Shown here one piece after another: positions 18,665 through 40,055 of a stretch of 64,000 nt of DNA. Position numbers and translations under genes: made by a program. The notes under the pieces were generated by a model. It was not told the origin of the DNA and searched no databases. It was given only the letters and a program-made list of their open reading frames with translations. Origin of the DNA: Nitrospira sp. (GTDB lineage: Bacteria; Nitrospirota; Nitrospiria; Nitrospirales; Nitrospiraceae); the NCBI GenBank assembly GCA_005116745.1, contig SWDS01000010.1, positions 442,552 to 506,551 on the forward strand, given 5' to 3'. Within the stretch, counting starts at the first letter, position 1. Each line of letters opens with the position of its first letter.

Positions 18665-19393
18665 CTACAGATTCTTCGGCCACAATGAACCCAACTCTGG
18701 ATACTTCGCGCGATAGTCGGCGTGACTAGCACGAATGACTTTCCGCGCTTCCTCCCGTCCATATACACTGGTGATTTCTACTTTGTGATGGGTCGTCCCT
18801 GGCGCGCTCTTATAGGTCAAAAAATAATGCTGAAGGCGATCCATGAGTGCAGACGGACATTGTGAAATGTCCGTGAAACTCCCGTACACGGCATCGTCCC
18901 GCATCACGGCGATGATCTTGTCATCGGCTTCACCGCCGTCGGCCATGCTCAATCCGCCGATTGGCAGCGCTGTGAGGAGGATATCGCTATGGGGAATGCT
19001 CTTTTCCGACAACACGCAAATATCAAGTGGATCGCCGTCTCCGACCATGCCCTTGCGGCGAGCTCGTTTGGCAAAGATGCCGGCGACTTGGTCTCCTGAG
19101 TAGGTCTGCGGAATGAGTCCATAGTAGACGGGACAGAAGTTTGAAAACCGCTGCGGCCGATCCACCTTGAGAAAGCCACTGTTCTTGTCCACTTCATATT
19201 TGACGGTGTCAGTCGGGACGATTTCAATGTAGGCCGTGACCACATCCGGGGCCTCTTCTCCAATAGACACGCCGTGCCACGGATGTGCCTTGAACATCAG
19301 CCCGAGCAGACGTTGAAAGGGGTCGCTCCCTGCCCGTATCTCGGTTGTCTTATCTGAATCCTCTCCCCTTCCCTTTCCCTTCCGCTCTTTCAT
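18665..19393 (-). CDS. ppa: Inorganic pyrophosphatase (family I)
   Basis: A soluble family I pyrophosphatase that hydrolyses PPi to two phosphates and pulls biosynthetic reactions forward. The metal-binding signature DGDPLDICV is present, with KYEVDKNSGFLKVDR and the FCPVYYGLIPQTY active-site region. From the ATG at 19393, which follows GGAGGGG, it is 242 residues, longer than the E. coli enzyme (175). The extra N-terminus is highly charged (KERKGKGRGEDSDK) with a FKAHPWHG segment resembling eukaryotic-type or extended bacterial forms. A farther upstream start (19465) has weaker support. Confidence 0.92.
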   Translation of the reverse strand: MKERKGKGRGEDSDKTTEIRAGSDPFQRLLGLMFKAHPWHGVSIGEEAPDVVTAYIEIVPTDTVKYEVDKNSGFLKVDRPQRFSNFCPVYYGLIPQTYSGDQVAGIFAKRARRKGMVGDGDPLDICVLSEKSIPHSDILLTALPIGGLSMADGGEADDKIIAVMRDDAVYGSFTDISQCPSALMDRLQHYFLTYKSAPGTTHHKVEITSVYGREEARKVIRASHADYRAKYPELGSLWPKNL

Positions 19394-19638
19394 GTCCCCT
19401 CCGGTTCTTTTCTGAATATCTTGGCGAATTGCAACGCTTCTGAATCGTGCCCCAGTATCGCCCAAGATGTTAGCGAGAGCAATGACTTCCTAATCTTAGA
19501 TGGGGAGAGGTTGAGAAGATCTGTGATTCACAGCTGCTTGGACTAGCCGGGGACCTAAGCCCGAGGCGTCTTCTCTGTGGGTCTAGCGAGTGTGCTGTCT
19601 TGCTGACGATGTTGTTCTGGAGATCTCTCGCTTTAGGA

Positions 19639-22600
19639 TTAGGTTTGGTCGGCATCTGCTGCGGCAGATCGAGGATGTTCCAATTTGTCTTGATTGGAAG
19701 CGCGATCATCGACGGGGGATTGCTGAGTCGTTGTTTCGGGAGAGACCTTTGACGCACCTGCAGGGCGTGAAATCAACCGACTAAGCTTCGTGTTGTTTCC
19801 TAATCCATTCTGTAAGACAACGCCGGCCAGTCCTATGGTTGCCGATAGCTTGAGCGCCGTAGACTCTTCGACGTTTTCTATTGGGTCGTCGGGCTTAAGA
19901 AACTCTTTAGGCTCTGCCTTGGCTGTGGCGGTGTTCTGACTATCCGTCTGGTATCCCATTGCATCTGGCTCACGCTTTTCTCCAAGATTGGGCAGCCGTT
20001 CTGCCTTATGCTCAGCAAGGGCTTTCTCCACAGGGGCAGAAACAACCGAAGGGTCTGTATGGTCAGGAGTGAGAATTTCTATCGGCAGAGGGCCCTCCGT
20101 CTTAATGTCAATCACGTTCCGAGGGTTATCCGGCAGACGGAATCTATCCTCTTCAGACTCATTCGATAAGTTTATTCCTGGCAAAGAAGCATTTGTAAAC
20201 ACATTGCTATCACGAATTCCAAAATTGGCTGTTGCCAGTCTGTGTGCCATATCTTCCGAAAACTCATCCGCCACAGTAGTGGCGATCGGCCCTTCGTTCA
20301 CATTCGTGAGGTTGATGGTGAATTGCTCGGTATAGCTCTGGCCGCCACTGTCCGTCACTTGCACGGTGAGGTTGTGGCTCGCGGCCGCTACATAATTGAG
20401 GAGGCTCCCGTCCGCCACCGTGATCACACCCGTACTCGCATCGATGGCAAAGCGGCCGCCCGCCGTATCGGTCAGGCTATAGGTTTTTGTGTCACTCGCA
20501 TCGGGATCGGTGCCCGTGACTGCGCCGACTACGGTCCCGGTTACTGCGCTCTCGGCGACGGTGTTGGCGGAGAGGGCGAGGTCCGTTGGCCCCTCGTTCA
20601 CATTGGTGAGATTGATGGTGAATTGCTCGGTATAGCTCTGTCCCCCGCTGTCCATGACCTGGACCGTCACCGTGTGGTTGGCGGCGCTCTCATAATCAAG
20701 CAAGCTGCCGTCGGCGACGGTGAGCCGACCAGTGGCACTGTTAATGGCAAACCGGCCCCCGGCAGTATCGGTCAGGCTATAGGTCTTCGTGTCGCCCGCA
20801 TCCACATCGCTTCCCGTGACGGTGCCCACCACCGTGCCGGTCGTGGCATTCTCGGCGATGGTGCTCGCGGACAGGCTCAGGTCTGTCGGCGCTTCATTGA
20901 TATTTGTCACTCGAACAGTGATCGCTTGTGAATCGATGCCTCCTCGTCCGTCGCTGGCCTGTACGACGACCTGATACGTATTGTTGCGGTCTGTATCGGT
21001 TGGCTGTTCAAAGTTTGGGGTTGAGTTTAAATGTAATACACCAGTGTTCGGATTGATCGTAAATTGAGCCGCATCCGCCCCTCCAACAACGCTGTACGTG
21101 ACCCGTGCACCTTGATCCTGGTCTATGGCACGAACTCGTGTGACGCTCGCGTTGTTTTCTCGAATCGTTACGGAAGCGATATCGCCTCCTTGATTGCTGG
21201 TAATCCTTGGTGCTTCGTTGACATCCGTGACACGCACACTAATTGACTGTGTGGCCGTCCCTCCGTGGCTGTCAGACACCTGAACCGTCACATCATAGAC
21301 ATTGTCTCTCCCCACATCCGACGATAGCTCGAAGTTCGGAGCAGTGGAGAATCGAAGAGCGCCGGTGGCGCTATCGATCGAAAACCGCGCCGCATCCGGT
21401 CCTCCGGCGATGCCGTACGTCAGGGTTGTTCCAGTATCAACGTCCATCGCAGCTACTATAGTCACGGTATTTTGATTTTCCGCTACATTCACAGCAGCCG
21501 CTGCTCCTCCGTCATTGCTGGTGATGATCGGCGCCTCATTCACGTTCGTGAGATTGATGGTAAAGCTCTCGGTGTAACTCTGCCCGCCGCTGTCGGTGAC
21601 CTGGACCGTCAGGCTGTGGCTCGCCGCCGCTTCGTAATTCAACGAGGACCCGTCCGCGACCGTGATCACGCCGGTGCTGGCATTGATGGCAAAGCGGCCG
21701 CCGGCGGTATCGGTGAGGCTATAGCTCTTCGTGTCCCCCGCATCGACATCGGTGCCGTGACTGCGCCGACTACGGTCCCGGTTACTGCGCTCTCGGCGAC
21801 GGTGTTGGCGGAGAGGGCGAGGTCCGTTGGCCCCTCGTTCACATTGGTGAGATTGATGGTGAATTGCTCGGTATAGCTCTGTCCCCCGCTGTCTGTGACC
21901 TGGACCGTCACCGTGTGGTTGGCGGCGCTCTCATAATTAAGCAAGCTGCCGTTGGCCACCGTGAGCTGGCCGGTGGCACTGTTGATTGCGAACCGGCCCC
22001 CCGCCGTATCAGTCAGGCTATAGGTCTTCGTGTCGCCCGCATCCACATCGCTTCCCGTGACGGTGCCCACCACGGTGCCGGTGGTGGCATTCTCGGCCAC
22101 GGTGCTCGCCGACAGGCTTAGGTCACTCGGCGCCGTATTCGCATCCGCAACGTTATAGTCCACGTGAACGTTGTCGATGAATAAGCGATCTCCCCCGCTC
22201 GTTCCAGTCACCACAAACTGAATCTTGGTATCGGCAGACATGTGTTCCGAGATATCGAAACTGGCCGTGCCACTGCCTGTATGATTCGTCTTAGAAAAAG
22301 TGCCGTCGCTCAGGGTACGATAGTTGGCGCCGCCATCGGTTGAGATGCGGACTTCGACAGTGCCCCCCTTATCCAAATCATTATTGTAGTCAAAGCTGAG
22401 AGTGGCACTCCGTGCACTACTCAGATCCACAGCTCGGCTCACGGACGCCCCAGCTACCTGGGTCTGAATCCGCAACTCACCGGAATTGATCTGAATATGT
22501 CCACCATTGGCATCACTCTTCCCTACATCGACTTCCGTCCAGTTTGAGGACCATGACCTGGTTCCATCATTGTTTCCATAGGACTTGTCCGAGAATGTGT

Positions 22601-23414
22601 CGGCAACCGTTTCATTTCCCAAGACCTCAGCCCAATTCATTTGCGCATCGTAATCGACAGCCAACGACGTCTCGATGGTTCCCGTACTAACTTCCAACTC
22701 CCAATCTCCGCCGAGCGAGATGCTGCCGGTGAGGTCATTGCTCGCCTGCACATCGGCTCCTGTGAGGTTAGCCAGCATGTCCACCGCAGCTTGTCCTGCT
22801 TCCCCTTGCGCAAATTCACAGCCATAGACCAGGATATCGGCCTGCTCAGAAAGTGATTGGTGAATGACCGCCAGATCATCCGCATATTGAGTAGACATCG
22901 AGTCCGCATTGAGCACCCCAGTCCCGAGCTGGAGTTCACCGGCACCTCCGTGTGAAATAAGATGAATGGCATCGATGCCGTTACGTTGGGACAAGGCGTT
23001 CGCCATCTGCTCAATGCCATCCTGTCCGCCGTCGAGCATAATGACTTCGACGTTCGAGTTCATGCTGCTGAGGAGATCCTGGTAGTTCGGAACGGTGGGG
23101 TCAACAAACACCACTTCACTTCTTGACTCACCTGGATTATAGGTCGCAATCGCGTCAAGTACGCCCTGCGATTCAGCCTGCTCTGCAGACGGGCCATCGG
23201 CATGATGATCTGACGAAACGGCCGTCTCGGCCTGCTCTTGCGCGACCTGTTCAGATGCCACCTCAGAAGCCGTCGCTGAGGCAGCTGCGTCGAACATGAG
23301 CCGCTGTTCGAGAGAAATGAGAGACCCTTTGATACCAGACGATGATGTCTGGGCCGGTCGGTCCTTCTGGCCGCTTGAGTGAGGTGCTTTCTTTTTTCTA
23401 CCGAAACCGAACAT
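19639..23414 (-). pseudogene. DUF4347/cadherin-repeat surface protein, split by a one-base frameshift
   Basis: Two frames (21666-23414 and 19639-21669) form one gene of about 1258 codons. The N-terminus has a LEPR-like motif (SLEQRLMFDAAA) and a DUF4347 domain (VIMLDGGQDGIEQMA, HLISHGGAGELQLG, DILVYGCEFA), then a jelly-roll-like domain. At least five cadherin-type repeats of about 95-100 residues follow, with GTVVGTVTGSDVDAGD-like calcium sites and a C-terminal hydrophobic stretch (LSATIGLAGVVL). Such proteins are large exported adhesins, often secreted by type I systems. At 21751-21760 the sequence reads GGTGCCGTGAC where the sister repeat at about 20508 reads GGTGCCCGTGAC: one C is missing and the frame is lost. 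Mutation or assembly error. Confidence 0.85.
20513..20930 (-). repeat. Cadherin repeat nearly identical at DNA level to 21757-22130
   Basis: This segment and 21757-22130 share long identical stretches (for example the same wording from CCGTGACTGCGCCGACTACG onwards); by eye about nine in ten bases agree over some 370 bp. The similarity at silent positions points to recent duplication or gene conversion between repeats, and makes the region prone to slippage and misassembly. Confidence 0.7.
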
Positions 23415-23990: not shown

Positions 23991-24298
23991 AAGTGTCACT
24001 CAATACATTCACTCTGCTATTTAAACTCATGATACGAATCATGTTTTGCTCGACGAGGAAATAATGGCCTAAGAGCCGTCCATACGGAGAATTGCCCCAA
24101 TACGACGCCCATCTTCGCCCTCCTCGGTAATCTCCAAGCCGGCACTCCAATCGTGACCATGGAAACACAGCTGGCAGGGTCCGCTCTTGAGGGGTCAACA
24201 ATGTAGCCCTTGAGGAACACCGGGAGTCAGGGTACACTGAATTTCCTGCGCTCTTCCCAAACCCAAGTACGGTACCGTCATCAGAAGGAGATTCTTGT
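23991..24298. other. Intergenic region
   Basis: About 300 bp before the rhodanese gene. Minus-strand frames here are long but have no domain; one reads SGPCQLCFHGHDWSAG, which contains a CxxC, and could be a decayed fragment. I cannot support a gene. Confidence 0.3.
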
Positions 24299-24766
24299 AT
24301 GAAGACCATGAATGGGTTAGCTCTCTGTCTCGTCTCTGCCCTCATCGGCGCATCCCTGTCCCTATCTTCTCCCGCTCTCGCTCAGAGCCTCCCACCGGCA
24401 GCCAAACAAAACGGTGCCGCGGTACAGAAGCCTGTCAGAACCATCGGTATGGAAGAGTATCGAAAGATCGTCGAGAATCCTGGACCAGCCTTGATCGTCG
24501 ATGTACGAGAGCCGTACGAATATGCAGCCGGGCACGTCCCGGGGGCAATCAACATTCCACGGGGCGTGATCCAAACCGAAATCTGGAAACACGTCGGATC
24601 TGCAGAGAAAGCCGACGCGGAACGCCCGATCGTGCTCCAGTGCCAAGCTGGGAGGCGTGCAACCCTTGCTGCTCAAACCCTTGGAGAACTTGGATTCACG
24701 CAGACCTCTGCGGTCATCATGAACCTCGACGACTGGAAGCAATCCGGCAATCCTTTCGTGAAGTAA
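24299..24766 (+). CDS. Periplasmic rhodanese-like sulfurtransferase
   Basis: A 155-residue single-domain rhodanese with a signal peptide (LALCLVSALIGASLSLSSPALA, cleavage near residue 29). The CH2A-type motif VDVREPYEYAAGHVPGAINIP spans 67-87 and the active Cys115 sits in the loop QCQAGRRA, which begins the anion-binding helix. It is expected to carry a persulfide or process thiosulfate in the periplasm. AAGGAG precedes the ATG. A small monooxygenase-like gene follows 37 bp later on the same strand. Confidence 0.88.
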   Translation: MKTMNGLALCLVSALIGASLSLSSPALAQSLPPAAKQNGAAVQKPVRTIGMEEYRKIVENPGPALIVDVREPYEYAAGHVPGAINIPRGVIQTEIWKHVGSAEKADAERPIVLQCQAGRRATLAAQTLGELGFTQTSAVIMNLDDWKQSGNPFVK

Positions 24767-33500: not shown

Positions 33501-34695
33501 TCTCAGGCACTGGGGCCTTTCGGTCAACATGGCCAGCTCAGGCTCAGAATTTCTTGAGTTCGTCATGAACGAGCTCGCCACGGATGGTGGTAAGGTATTG
33601 GCCCTCGTTGATGAATCCTGTGCAGACATGACCGGCCAGGAACTATTGCAGGCACTGACCTCCGATTCCTCACTGAGCGAAGCCGGCATCCTCCGCTTGG
33701 TATCGTTCACGCAGCGGGCGGAGATCGAACAAGACCCCGCATTCGGTGGGATGCACTGTCTCACCAAGCCACTTCGTTACCAGACCCTGCGTGATGGGCT
33801 CGTCAATGGGTTGACCAACACATCGGTGATGGTCTCGCAGACACAGATCGCGCCGACTTCGGCCTCGGAGTTGTGTGGACAGGTGTTATTGGCCGAAGAC
33901 AACCCAGTCAATCAAGAGATCGCCGTGCTCATGCTCCAGACCCTGGGTTGCACCGTCACGGTGGCTCAGAACGGCCAAGAAGCGGTGGACCAGGCGAAGA
34001 GAGCCGCCTATGACCTCATTCTCATGGATTGCCAAATGCCGGAGATAGATGGTTTTGAAGCCACCAAGGTGATCCGTGAATGGGAAATGGCTGGATCTCG
34101 GCCTGCCATTCCGATCATTGCGCTCACGGCCTATGCGACACCGGGTGACCGTGAACAGTGCTTAGCCGCCGGCATGAGCGACTACATCGCAAAGCCCTTC
34201 TCCATGGAACGGCTGCGGGCAGTGTTGACCTCCTGGCTGCAACCGGCTCCGACACCATCAACGATCAATCAGCCTGCTTCACAGCCGACCGTGACGTTGG
34301 TCGCGGCGACGCCGGAACCAGAGTTTGAGGCGTCCTTGATTGTCGATGTGAAGGCGTGGGAGTCGATTTCAAGCCTCCAGCGACCGGGCAAAGCAGATCC
34401 GCTCGCCAAGATCCTGTCGCTATATTTGGCGGACTCACAACAACTTGTCGATATGCTGCATCAGGGCATGGATGTTGGAGATGCCACGGCTGTCAACCAG
34501 GCTGCGCATAGCTTGAAAAGCAGAAGCGCGGTCCTCGGAGCCCTCTCTCTCGCAACACTCTGCCAGCAGTTCGAGACTCTCAGTCGCCAGGGGCAGCTGA
34601 ACGAGGCTGAACCACTGTTGAATCAACTGGATGCGGCATTTGACCACGCCTGCCAGATTTTTGGAGCTGAACTCAACAAGAGGAGAGCCGCATGA
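30505..34695 (+). CDS. Hybrid sensor histidine kinase (HAMP-GAF-HisKA-HATPase-REC-REC-HPt)
   Basis: A 1396-residue membrane sensor. TM1 (about 12-33), a periplasmic sensing region to about 265, TM2 (about 268-288), a HAMP segment, one GAF-like domain (about 360-500), a coiled coil, a second GAF-like domain (about 560-710), HisKA with His743 in NMSHEIRTPMNG, HATPase (DTGSGIS, GGTGLGLSI), a first receiver without the acidic pair (INHPVTRR in its place), a second receiver with Asp1175 in LILMDCQMPEIDG, and an HPt domain with His1335 in AAHSLKSRS. This is a full intramolecular phosphorelay. The 4-bp overlap with the next gene pairs it with the REC-PAS-GGDEF-EAL output protein. Confidence 0.92.
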   Translation: MQTPFSLSLLHSRIGRRILGLFVLCALVPTSILGWVSYRQVTEQLIVQASARLKQESKSQGMVLYSHLLTLTADLDRIASELPKDGIVLTDTAITASVKELGRRFHEIHLLAAGGSGRRGLTQAQIAHLQEGKALLEIHPVPDHLPQLTLTRIVNPRRWDAGLLSAQIDETSLWSTQVKEALPGDTDLVIEDGARQVLYTTFLQHVTLPDFRRRDVVAPMGEGALWRFGRQEYVAGAWSMPLRHTFLVEPWVIVLSQPRESALAPVEQFRHTFLLVIASALSAVVLLSFVQIRRSLYPVAVLQEGTARLAGGDFTTRVTVKSDDEFHDLASSFNSMTGKLSQQFHMLETISAISQAILSSHEPTAMIKIVQSRITDTITCDAVGMTLVDPEEGGSAVLWVRVIDGPSDHESQAYPCQFSDDHLAAMKAHPTHFIATASTLPPYLTPMQKPDLSLFVTFPIIVNEIVSGALVLAYRQRHKPPADNLAHARRLADQVAVALAKNQAMKAQIQAQIELIGAVDDKQQAEERATILQSANQLLETKEERLRHQQSATLALVQDRTVFEGALPFTAKQLTTVAAQALVVDRVSVWIFEEQTQALYCLDSYDRPANTHAFGGKLTRAQSPIYFETLGCGHLLAASQAQQDPNLRELVTGSLAPQQIGARIDAPFQTQGKLTGVITIEHVGSSRDWAPDEQQFTQALANFMTLVLEAARRRESEEALALAKIAAEDATKAKAEFLANMSHEIRTPMNGVIGMTEILARTPLSDTQRHYVDTIHNSSDTLLTLINDILDFSKIEAGKLDIQSVPIDLRDLVERTVEQLAERAQRKHLTLSVEYDPTLPTAVMGDPIRVRQILTNLLGNAIKFTQAGDVSVTVALDPSLSSEGTPHMIRLAVTDTGSGISAEGQAKLFQSFSQVDGSSTRVHGGTGLGLSICKQLSELMGGTIGVESVIGQGSTFWVVLPFPLQAGTVVENPADSVLAGVRVCAAINHPVTRRILTRYLRHWGLSVNMASSGSEFLEFVMNELATDGGKVLALVDESCADMTGQELLQALTSDSSLSEAGILRLVSFTQRAEIEQDPAFGGMHCLTKPLRYQTLRDGLVNGLTNTSVMVSQTQIAPTSASELCGQVLLAEDNPVNQEIAVLMLQTLGCTVTVAQNGQEAVDQAKRAAYDLILMDCQMPEIDGFEATKVIREWEMAGSRPAIPIIALTAYATPGDREQCLAAGMSDYIAKPFSMERLRAVLTSWLQPAPTPSTINQPASQPTVTLVAATPEPEFEASLIVDVKAWESISSLQRPGKADPLAKILSLYLADSQQLVDMLHQGMDVGDATAVNQAAHSLKSRSAVLGALSLATLCQQFETLSRQGQLNEAEPLLNQLDAAFDHACQIFGAELNKRRAA

Positions 34696-36419
34696 CGTCC
34701 CCTACCCAACCACCTTTTCCCCTCGCACTGATCGTCGACGATGATCCAACGTTGCGTGCATTATCACGGATGAGCTTGGAACAAGAGGATCTCCGAGTGG
34801 AAGAAGCCTCGTCGGGGCAAGCTGCCATCGACTGTGCCGCGGTCACGATGCCGGACATCATCATCCTCGACTTGCAAATGCCGGGCATGGATGGGTTTGT
34901 TGCCTGTCAGCAACTCCGGCAGTTGCCGCGCGGGGAATTTGTGCCTATTCTCATCATGACGGGGCTGGATGACATCGATTCGATCGCGCAGGCATACGAA
35001 GTCGGCGCGACCGACTTTATCGTGAAGCCTTGTCCTGGGCTCATCCTGAGTCAGCGAGTACGGTACATGCTTCGGGCAAGTGAGATGCTCAACGCGCTTC
35101 GCAGCAGCGAATCCCGGCTTGCTCAAGCCCAGAGAATCGCTCAATTAGGCGGATGGGAATGGGATCTCGTCAAAGACCGCATGCACGTCTCGGATGCGGC
35201 GTGCCGGATCCTCGGAATCGCGCCAACCTTGTGTGATCACTCCCAGGCTTCGTATCTTGCGCGTGTGCACGAAGCGGATCGCGCATGGGTTGCCGAGGCC
35301 ATGCGAGCGGCGGTCGCCGATGGAACAGAATTTGATCTAGACCATCGCCTCGTCCAGAACGATGGTGCCGAACGCATCGTCCACGTCCTCGGAGAGACTA
35401 TCATGGACGATGCCGGGCAGGCGGAGTGTATGGTGGGCACGGTCCAAGATGTCACCGATATGCGAGCGACGGAAGCGAAGATCTATTTTCTCGCCAACTA
35501 TGACAGCGTGACTCATCTTCCCAATCGAAGCTTATTCCTCCATCGCGTGGCACAAGCGATGACCTGTGGCGCAGGCAGCCATGTCATCGGCGCACTCCTC
35601 GTCGTAGGCCTCGACCGGTATCATCGCCTGCGTGACATGCATGGCTCGCGAAAAGCAGAACAGCTCGTCAAGGACGTCGTGGAGCGCCTCCAGCATACCC
35701 TTTCGGCTGGCGTCATACCTGTACCGTCCACCGGTGCTGAGACTCCTGTCCTGGCGCGTCTGAGCGATGATCAATTTGCGATGCTGTACACCCATCTGTC
35801 TGCGCCTGAGGACTCTGCCAAAGTGGCTCACACATTGATGAGCGCTCTCGGTACTCCGTTTGTGATCGACGGTACGAGCGTGACGCTTTCGGCACATATT
35901 GGACTCGCGATACCTGGAGCCGACGGTGCGGATGCTGATGTGCTCCTGCGCAATGCCGTCACAGCCCTTCAAGCCGCCACAACCACGGGCCAGAACAGTT
36001 ACCGATACTACTCCTCTGCGATGAACACCTCACTGGCTGCCCGGATCAGCCTGGAACAGGATTTACGCGCCGCCACTACCGCAAATCAATTCGTCCTCCA
36101 CTATCAACCACAGGTCGATATTCTCTCGGAGAAGGTCGTCGGCTTTGAAGCGCTCATCCGATGGCAACATCCCACTCGTGGGTTGATCTCTCCGGCTGAG
36201 TTCATTCCGGTGGCCGAAGAAGAGGATCTGATCATCCAGATGAGTGAATGGGTGATCACGAGCGTGGTGCGGCAACAGAGGATGTGGCACAAAGGAGGAT
36301 TGGCTCCGACCGCCGTGTCCATCAATCTTTCTGGGCTTCATTTCCGACAACGCCATATCGCTAGTCACATCAAGGCACTCGTCTATGAGCAGGGCGGGAA
36401 TCCACAGGATAATGAAGCT

Positions 36420-36439
36420 CCCCGCAGCAAGCTGCGGGG
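36420..36439. repeat. Left hairpin of the IS200-type element
   Basis: CCCCGCAGCAAGCTGCGGGG forms a perfect nine-base stem with an AA loop. It is matched at the other end by 36927-36946, and in each case the stem is followed by G(T/A)ATCACA. Confidence 0.85.
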
Positions 36440-36449
36440 TATCACAGAA

Positions 36450-36899
36450 CTAAAACATGTGGAGCTGCCGGAGATCATCGCGGGATTGTCCTTGCCGCTG
36501 TACATACCGCTCGACTGTCTGCCAGTTCGCTCGCTCTCCTACCGTGGCCACATAGTACCCATCGGTCCAAAATTCTCCACCCCACAGCACTCGTTTGACG
36601 GCAGGCTTTCGGCGAAAGATTTCCCGGGCCGTGATGCTCTTAAATATCTGTACAATCCGCCCCGGCGCCATTTTCGGATGGGCACTGCAGAGGAGATGGA
36701 TGTGATTCTTGTCCGTCCCAATCGCTTCCATCTCGATCGGAAATCGTTCTGCAATCTCTGCCGCCGTGTCCTCAATAATCGCGGTCACTTCCTCATCCAG
36801 CAGCGCCTTGCGGTATTTCACCGGAAACACAATATGGTAGTGGATTTGCCATGCACAGTGCGCCCCCTTGCGAACCTCATTGTCCCTCTGATCCGCCAT
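36450..36899 (-). CDS. tnpA: IS200/IS605-family transposase TnpA
   Basis: A 149-residue Y1 HUH single-strand transposase. The N-terminal [16 protein letters not shown] matches the family start, the HUH pair is HIHLL, and the catalytic Tyr lies in the helix [10 protein letters not shown]. It is full length and uninterrupted, and so possibly active. It is encoded opposite to the host gene. No tnpB accessory gene is present, as in the IS200 subgroup; a REP-associated (RAYT) transposase is the alternative, but the length fits IS200 better. Confidence 0.88.
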
Positions 36900-36926
36900 G
36901 CGCCAGAGGGTACCAGAGAAACGGAT

Positions 36927-36946
36927 CCCCGTAGCAAGCTACGGGG
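36927..36946. repeat. Right hairpin of the IS200-type element
   Basis: CCCCGTAGCAAGCTACGGGG differs from the left hairpin only by compensated base pairs in the stem (C to T and G to A), so the structure is conserved while the sequence has drifted. Confidence 0.85.
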
Positions 36947-37442
36947 AATCACAAGTTGAACTGGAACTCACGGAGAGCGTGTTGATGACCGATGCCTCGA
37001 CCACCATTGCCACGCTCAGGGAATTGAAGGAGTCTGGGTTCCGCTTGGCCATCGATGATTTTGGCACGGGATACTCATCGCTCGCGTATCTTCAGCGGTT
37101 TCCCCTCGACACGCTCAAGATCGATCGGGCGTTCGTTAAAGATCTCAAGCTCGGCACAGTTGATTCCCCCATCATACGAGCGATCATCGGCATGGGTCGC
37201 GCACTCAAGCTTCACGTCGTGGCCGAAGGAGTGGAGACTCGCGACGAGCTGGCATTTCTTCGCATGCAAGGCTGTGCCGCGTACCAGGGCTACCTGTTTA
37301 GCAAACCGGTCCCCGCGAATCAGCTGCAGCATCTCCTGCGGGATCGCCGATCCGAAGACGCATCAATGGCAGCCGAGCGTTTCCGAAATCGCCTGGCCAG
37401 CTGAAGCATGGTGTTGCTAACGGAGAGGTTTCGACAGCTAAC

Positions 37443-38939: not shown

Positions 38940-40055
38940 TTACGGTCGACCGGGCGTGGCGATACCAGACGGTGTCGTTCCTGCGGGAAACGGGTTTCCC
39001 AACGTCCCACTGACTGGAGTCAGAGCGCCAGTTCCTGCTGTGATGGTATAAGCTGATACATTATTACTGCCACCATTGGCGACGTATAAAAATAGACCAC
39101 TCGGTTCGATGGAAACTCCGCTTGGCGATGTGCCAGCAGCAATTGTGGCTGGTGATGTCAATGCTCCTGTAGCTCCATCAATTGTGAACATCGACACATT
39201 GTCGCTGCTGCCATTCGTCACATATAAGAAGTTTCCGTTAGGGGAGACCGTCACCGCGTTGGGGGTGGTTCCAGCCGCAAAGGGTGAACCGGCTGCCGGC
39301 GTGAGTGCGCCTGTGCCTGCCGTGATGGTGTAGGCTGACACGTTTCCACCGCTATTTGCGACGTATAAGAAGTTTCCATTGGGGGAGACTATCACCGCAT
39401 TGGGGGTGGTCGCAGCTGGAAAGGGTGACCCTGCCACCGGCGTGAGTACGCCCGTGCCTGCCGTGATGGTGTAGGCTGAAACGTCTCCACCGCCATTTGC
39501 GACATATAAGAAGTTTCCGTTGGGGGAGATCGTCACCGCATTGGGCGTGGTTCCAGCCACAAAGGGTGACCCTGCTACCGGTGTGAGTACGCCCGTGCTT
39601 GCCGTGATGGTGTAGGCTGAAACGTTTCCACCGCCATTTGCGACATATAAGAAGTTTCCGTTGGGGGAGACCGTCACTGCATTGGGCGTGGTTCCAGCCA
39701 CAAAGGGTGACCCTGCTACCGGCGTTAACGCGCCCGTCGTGCTGTTGACCGTGAATGCCGATACACTGTTCGCGCCACCATGATTTGTCACATAGACGAA
39801 TGAGCCGTTGACGGACACAGTAACCGCAGATGGGGCCGTTACACCAGAAAATGGAGACCCACCAATGGTGGTCAGAGCTCCGGTTGTCGCGATCATGTAC
39901 CCAGACACATTGTTGGATCCGCTATTCGCGACATACGCGATTCGCGAGCTTATTCCACCGCCGTTTCCAAATCCCCCATCCCCACCACCTCCACTTGGGC
40001 AGCCGGTCAACAGCAGGAGCGGCAAGGCGAGCCATGACGACATTCGTGTGTTCAT
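38940..40055 (-). CDS. YVTN-type beta-propeller lipoprotein with tandemly duplicated blades
   Basis: A 371-residue lipoprotein from the ATG at 40055 (AAAGGAC precedes it; an upstream extension to 40226 has no signal peptide). The signal peptide ends LLLLTGC, and a Gly-rich linker leads into propeller blades of 47 residues: FLYVANGGGNVSAYTI and TPVAGSPFVAGTTPNAV recur almost unchanged. The three central blades differ by only a few bases. It is a paralogue of the downstream lipoprotein; both may be surface-exposed carbohydrate- or partner-binding proteins. No enzyme motif is visible. Confidence 0.86.
   Translation of the reverse strand: MNTRMSSWLALPLLLLTGCPSGGGGDGGFGNGGGISSRIAYVANSGSNNVSGYMIATTGALTTIGGSPFSGVTAPSAVTVSVNGSFVYVTNHGGANSVSAFTVNSTTGALTPVAGSPFVAGTTPNAVTVSPNGNFLYVANGGGNVSAYTITASTGVLTPVAGSPFVAGTTPNAVTISPNGNFLYVANGGGDVSAYTITAGTGVLTPVAGSPFPAATTPNAVIVSPNGNFLYVANSGGNVSAYTITAGTGALTPAAGSPFAAGTTPNAVTVSPNGNFLYVTNGSSDNVSMFTIDGATGALTSPATIAAGTSPSGVSIEPSGLFLYVANGGSNNVSAYTITAGTGALTPVSGTLGNPFPAGTTPSGIATPGRP
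39246..39668. repeat. Three 141-bp tandem repeats (47-codon propeller blades)
   Basis: Units start at 39246, 39387 and 39528, with a fourth diverging from 39669. The spacing is exactly 141 bp each time, and the units are nearly identical in DNA. Blade number could change by unequal recombination without loss of frame. Confidence 0.85.

Follow-up and report, generated by a model that had tools for sequence, protein, structure and literature searches.

An adhesin-like gene of Nitrospira sp. is read as two open reading frames (ORFs) where one base is missing relative to a sister repeat of the same gene, and the question is whether the cell has lost this reading frame or the genome sequence has lost a base. 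The gene was analysed in a window of 64,000 nucleotides (G000:C10:442552–506551), the whole stretch of DNA studied, from a source genome of 3.86 Mb in 32 contigs that is 99.96% complete. It is encoded on the minus strand, with a divergent rhodanese-like gene upstream and an inorganic pyrophosphatase gene downstream, and the features at the locus are:

18665–19489, minus strand, inorganic pyrophosphatase gene, downstream neighbour and locus marker (NF001886, 329.9 bits versus a cut-off of 247)
19639–20289, minus strand, C-tail, pieces of which occur at the same locus in relatives
19639–21669, minus strand, downstream ORF, 676 amino acids, starting at a GTG overlapping the stop of the upstream ORF
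21666–23414, minus strand, upstream ORF, 582 amino acids, ATG at 23414
21755–21756, minus strand, position where one base is missing, the gene strand having two G versus three in the sister repeat
22620–23114, minus strand, DUF4347 domain (PF14252, E = 3.1e-57; converted from residues 104–268 of window:21666–23423)
24191–24766, plus strand, gene of a rhodanese-like protein, upstream divergent neighbour and locus marker

The upstream ORF carries the motif SLEQRLMFDAA in its N-terminal part, DUF4347 and a choice-of-anchor-J-like stretch; one complete cadherin repeat and the first part of another are also encoded, and the final 29 residues of the ORF are out of frame. The downstream ORF continues the frame of the adhesin and encodes the remaining cadherin repeats and the C-tail, so that the whole split gene has ~1,258 codons with six cadherin-type repeats (counted by eye). 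It belongs to the DUF4347 family (193.4 bits versus a gathering score of 24.6, model positions 1–164 of 164), and both halves exceed the gathering score of 28.8 for Cadherin (PF00028), with 50 and 150.7 bits; the cadherin match of the downstream ORF has an E value of 1.6e-44. Among NCBIfam models, VCBS_repeat scored above its curated cut-off (34.7 versus 15.5), while choice_anch_J (21.7 versus 30) and tand_rpt_95 (58.8 versus 90) remained below theirs. The part of the C-tail at 19639–20250 (203 residues) had no Pfam match at E 0.01. From the DUF4347 head, the cadherin-type repeats and the C-tail we infer a surface or secreted adhesin-like protein; for the LEPR-XLL or type I secretion label, which we take to be the one given to such a protein, there was no model among the NCBIfam matches listed.

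The DUF4347 and cadherin frame that starts at 23414 leaves register at 21755–21756 and ends after 29 out-of-frame residues at a stop (21666–21668), and the cadherin frame resumes in the next register, down to 19639. At 21751–21761 the window copy reads GGTGCCGTGAC, and the sister repeat, which begins at 20509, reads GGTGCCCGTGAC. The missing base is the sole uncompensated gap relative to the sister copy over ~610 bp; BLAST placed two further, mutually compensating single-base gaps slightly more than 100 bases beyond it, in a stretch that MAFFT aligned without gaps. Over the 76 codons downstream, 29.8 synonymous and 16.2 non-synonymous changes separate the two repeats (dN/dS ~0.10, a ratio that reflects constraint over the time since the divergence of the repeats and not over the time since the break), which identifies the downstream register as the coding frame. 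A sequence-only reading of this DNA had already noticed a one-base deletion in a CCC run that splits a giant surface protein. Alignment confirmed the missing base, with two G on the gene strand against three in the sister, and the two ORFs (23414–21666 and 21669–19639) support the split; the position needed a small correction, the C pair being 21755–21756 rather than 21754–21756, and "giant" was an overstatement for ~1,258 codons, given an open relative of 4,751 codons in the same genome.

The split adhesin gene has its reading frame broken relative to relatives, as a pseudogene would. It shares the N-terminal motif, DUF4347 and cadherin repeats with other DUF4347 (PF14252) cadherin-repeat surface-type proteins of Nitrospira, several of which also have the same gene neighbours. 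Unlike these relatives, whose complete single-frame members have 738 to 2,229 codons, the window gene is broken in its second cadherin repeat. Single-frame and complete are L104 (2,125 codons, stop to stop), L105 (948), L106 (940), L107 (738), L108 (940) and the genes of G060 (831), G080 (1,781) and G006 (2,229); in L107, which is the gene of G053, a stop falls within the stretch matching the tail of the window gene. Loci related to the head occurred in named genome records (n = 14) of Nitrospira sp. (n = 11), a Nitrospirae bacterium (n = 1), Nitrosospira sp. (n = 1) and Gammaproteobacteria (n = 1). A survey of 34 loci located 59 distinct repeat sites in 22 of them; 18 sites had no readable upstream motif and were left out, and 40 of the 41 motif-bearing repeats are in frame, the single exception being the broken repeat of the window gene. 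A frame change without N occurs in G001 (L094), in the stretch after DUF4347 and at a different site from that of the window gene. Apparent recurrent frameshifts in G049, G090 and G046 were rejected, as N runs lie at those places. A literature search found no paper joining DUF4347 with cadherin, and for Nitrospira adhesins or cadherins the titles among the matches listed concern human microbes or cancer. As a split adhesin gene, the finding is an ordinary one.

We favour a real and recent loss-of-function deletion of one base, at an even chance; in its favour, near relatives have lost the gene at the same locus. Among 79 genomes of the genus, our own included, the pyrophosphatase was found in 61, and the C-tail had matches in 21 of the 79 (E 0.01), not all of them at the adhesin locus. 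Kinship was approximated by one gene, and the nearest genomes were the eight with 94–98% pyrophosphatase identity. None of these eight has a complete ungapped gene between the same neighbours, and six retain only remnants at the locus: a C-tail piece between the same neighbours in G047, G077, G050 and G094, 58 N-terminal residues followed by the C-tail in another frame in G019, and a shorter scar in G007. The gene is present with a run of 100 N in G049, and the contig of G055 ends inside the C-tail. No trace of the adhesin was detected at the locus in G042 and G083, which are somewhat more distant than the eight. The C-tail remnants of G047, G077, G050 and G094 (L084, L086, L088 and L090) start at what seems by eye to be the same junction (ATGAEAE), as if one ancestral deletion had left an open remnant of ~100 codons. 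The source genome adds to the case for a real deletion: of its four DUF4347 genes, one ends at 474 codons.

On this reading, a single base would recently have been deleted close to where a homogenised internal repeat ends, at the cost of the adhesin's frame. Translation would stop 29 codons later and yield a truncated product lacking the greater part of the second repeat, all four repeats after it and the C-tail, and the adhesin would be switched off, a loss of function and the first step of gene decay. The base would then be truly absent from the cell and the truncated product presumably functionless. Single-base frameshift pseudogenes likewise have one lesion, an intact downstream frame and gene loss in near relatives; unlike them, the window gene shows no further decay.

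Against a real loss, nothing except the one base points to decay, since no second lesion occurs in the ~1,258 codons of the split gene and the head (427 codons) has dN/dS of 0.07–0.15 against the seven relatives with an estimate, similar to the values among the relatives themselves; an eighth comparison, with G049, was saturated. Because constraint is apparent both in the head and in the repeat that directly follows the break, the lesion looks either young or not real. For the C-tail, where ratios are rough owing to ~90 codons and short, closely related pairs, dN/dS was 0.38–1.26 in 28 pairs (G000 and the eight near genomes minus G007; 25 of 28 between 0.4 and 0.85) and 0.38–0.73 for G000 versus its seven near relatives. 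Pairs with the intact gene of G053 (n = 8) gave 0.17–0.38, the lowest value being that with G000, and the contrast is weak because of the short, closely related pairs on one side and the much larger dS of the G053 pairs on the other. The head of the window gene has its best segments, at 81–86%, in L103, L104 and L107 from more distant Nitrospira, and matches G049 at 61% (N-terminus) and 69% (DUF4347) although the pyrophosphatases are 96% identical; judged by this closeness to distant Nitrospira, the adhesin may be mosaic or exchanged.

The constrained and clean head and repeat past the break would fit an error of assembly or polishing that dropped a base which the cell still has, leaving the adhesin gene ordinary and intact; to this explanation we assign somewhat less than an even chance. 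It is proposed because, close to the site, reads from either of two near-identical repeat copies are difficult to assign to the right one:

20514–20652, minus strand, copy 2 of a 139-bp exact internal repeat, 1,241 bp from copy 1
21755–21893, minus strand, copy 1 of the same repeat, ending at the missing base

This is the longest exact repeat in the window (repeats of 40 bp or more). If a gap is allowed, identity between the copies continues for 7 bases and then falls to ~80% over the next 228, and upstream of the break the copies are ~95% identical over 300 bp. The break site thereby looks like it is near the edge of a recently homogenised block. The missing base lies 7–9 bp inside the end of a block otherwise identical over ~146 bp whose twin is 1,241 bp away, and this location inside a near-perfect internal repeat counts against a real deletion. 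The abstract of the Polypolish paper (PMC8812927) describes short-read alignment as unreliable in repeats, where errors often survive polishing. Assemblers seem to struggle at the adhesin gene of relatives too, because N runs interrupt it in G049, G090 and G046 (some could be masking by the genome collection) and the contigs of L103, G055 and G073 end inside it. The earlier suggestion of a common sequencing error stays a live option, with the internal repeat as a stronger reason than the homopolymer, the run being only 2–3 bases long.

Several points weigh against assembly loss. Runs of three bases are not among the classic sites of error. The coincidence of site and repeat edge is post hoc and modest, with 2.6% of the gene situated no more than 12 bp from an end of the 139-bp repeat; as proof of an artefact the edge is weakened, as the gap itself ends the exact match and the natural edge is 7 bases past the run. 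Other large repetitive genes of the genome are open, namely relatives of 4,751 and 1,568 codons and a 722-codon ORF holding a 301-bp exact repeat. Residual indel errors of draft assemblies are likewise located inside near-perfect internal repeats; in the present case, no other such error was accepted in the part of the window that was compared. Comparison with relatives' ORFs, covering ORFs of at least 150 codons (spurious antisense ones included) in sequence shared with G047, G049 and G050 and leaving out the adhesin and an interrupted EAL gene, returned frame-change candidates in 0 of 34 (G047), 0 of 44 (G049) and 3 of 61 (G050). Two of the three G050 candidates sit at the boundary between the rhodanese-like gene and the next gene, which are in different frames in G050 too, and were not counted as frameshifts; the third, which affects just the initial 27 residues of an ORF, was not counted either.

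Other features of the window and the genome were recorded alongside. The interrupted gene (34692–37404) encodes response-regulator, PAS, GGDEF and EAL domains and carries an insertion in the last of these: EAL model positions 2–115 fall in ORF 34692–36959 and positions 116–236 in ORF 36898–37404, and the additional sequence, ~0.5 kb, is flanked at either end by translated PRSKLRGIT (REP-like by eye). Within 36430–36960, only the last ~60 bases recur elsewhere in the genome in near-identical form, apart from one 85% match of ~43 bases. A beta-propeller (Lactonase-type) gene contains a 141-bp tandem repeat (39220–39725, minus strand; 3.6 copies, 89% matches). On contig C6, a DUF4347 head (L131, G000:C6, 3342–4763) stops at 474 codons after DVDSTNFDTGTL and adjoins a piece whose match to an integrase core (rve) is weak (E = 8.5e-5; 23.2 bits versus a Pfam cut-off of 32.6). 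On C2, a 722-codon fragment without DUF4347 (L130, G000:C2, 15612–17777) begins near VLSIRHQGSGAG. In one intact repeat of the same protein the DVDSTNFDTGTL motif is followed by VLSIRHQGSGAG, and the C6 head and C2 fragment may be head and tail of one adhesin gene on two contigs.

It is very unlikely that the shift is corrected in expression, by a minus-one slip at a G5 run, or that the two ORFs are translated separately from the overlapping GTG. A G5 on the gene strand (C5 on the plus strand, 21735–21739) does lie within seven codons after the site where the needed shift is minus one, and the upstream stop and the GTG do overlap at 21666–21669. The slipperiness of this run is, however, our own reading of the sequence, no ribosome-binding site was seen by eye before the GTG, and the eight complete relatives are single-frame, with none seen split at the same place. 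A conserved programmed frameshift was rejected, because the complete relatives keep their frame, as do all but one of the 41 motif-bearing repeats. The neighbourhood of the break site had no match in a scan of viral contigs.

Marginally less credible still is a slow, repeat-driven contingency locus in which recombination between the near-identical internal repeats, and not the short run, sets the frame state. Gene conversion or crossing-over between the repeats could then spread, remove or create the frame change; the repeat spacing of 1,241 bp is not a multiple of three.

Least probable of all is the simple on/off switch of the sequence-only reading, in which a C/G run slips by a base and turns the adhesin on and off within the population: like a phase-variable homopolymer contingency locus, this is a surface-type gene with a one-base change within a run, but the run has only 2–3 bases where a hypermutable tract has well above three, no second length state was seen (one genome per species), the gene's own longer C5 and C6 runs leave the ORFs open and the other 40 motif-bearing repeats are all in frame. 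Passages in the literature give mainly G9 and G10 for the phase-variable G tracts of C. jejuni (PMC8355987) and mention a variable C5/C6 tract (PMC5084427). Runs of exactly three are abundant in the window (546 CCC and 499 GGG, 1,045 in all), and the homopolymer switch was rejected on tract length and this background.

If the break is an artefact, it is a warning that adhesins with internal repeats can seem disrupted in public genomes. If, as we favour, the cell really lacks the base, the window adds another adhesin loss at a locus from which the gene has gone in near relatives as well, and this may bear on how nitrifiers retain or abandon attachment and the formation of flocs.
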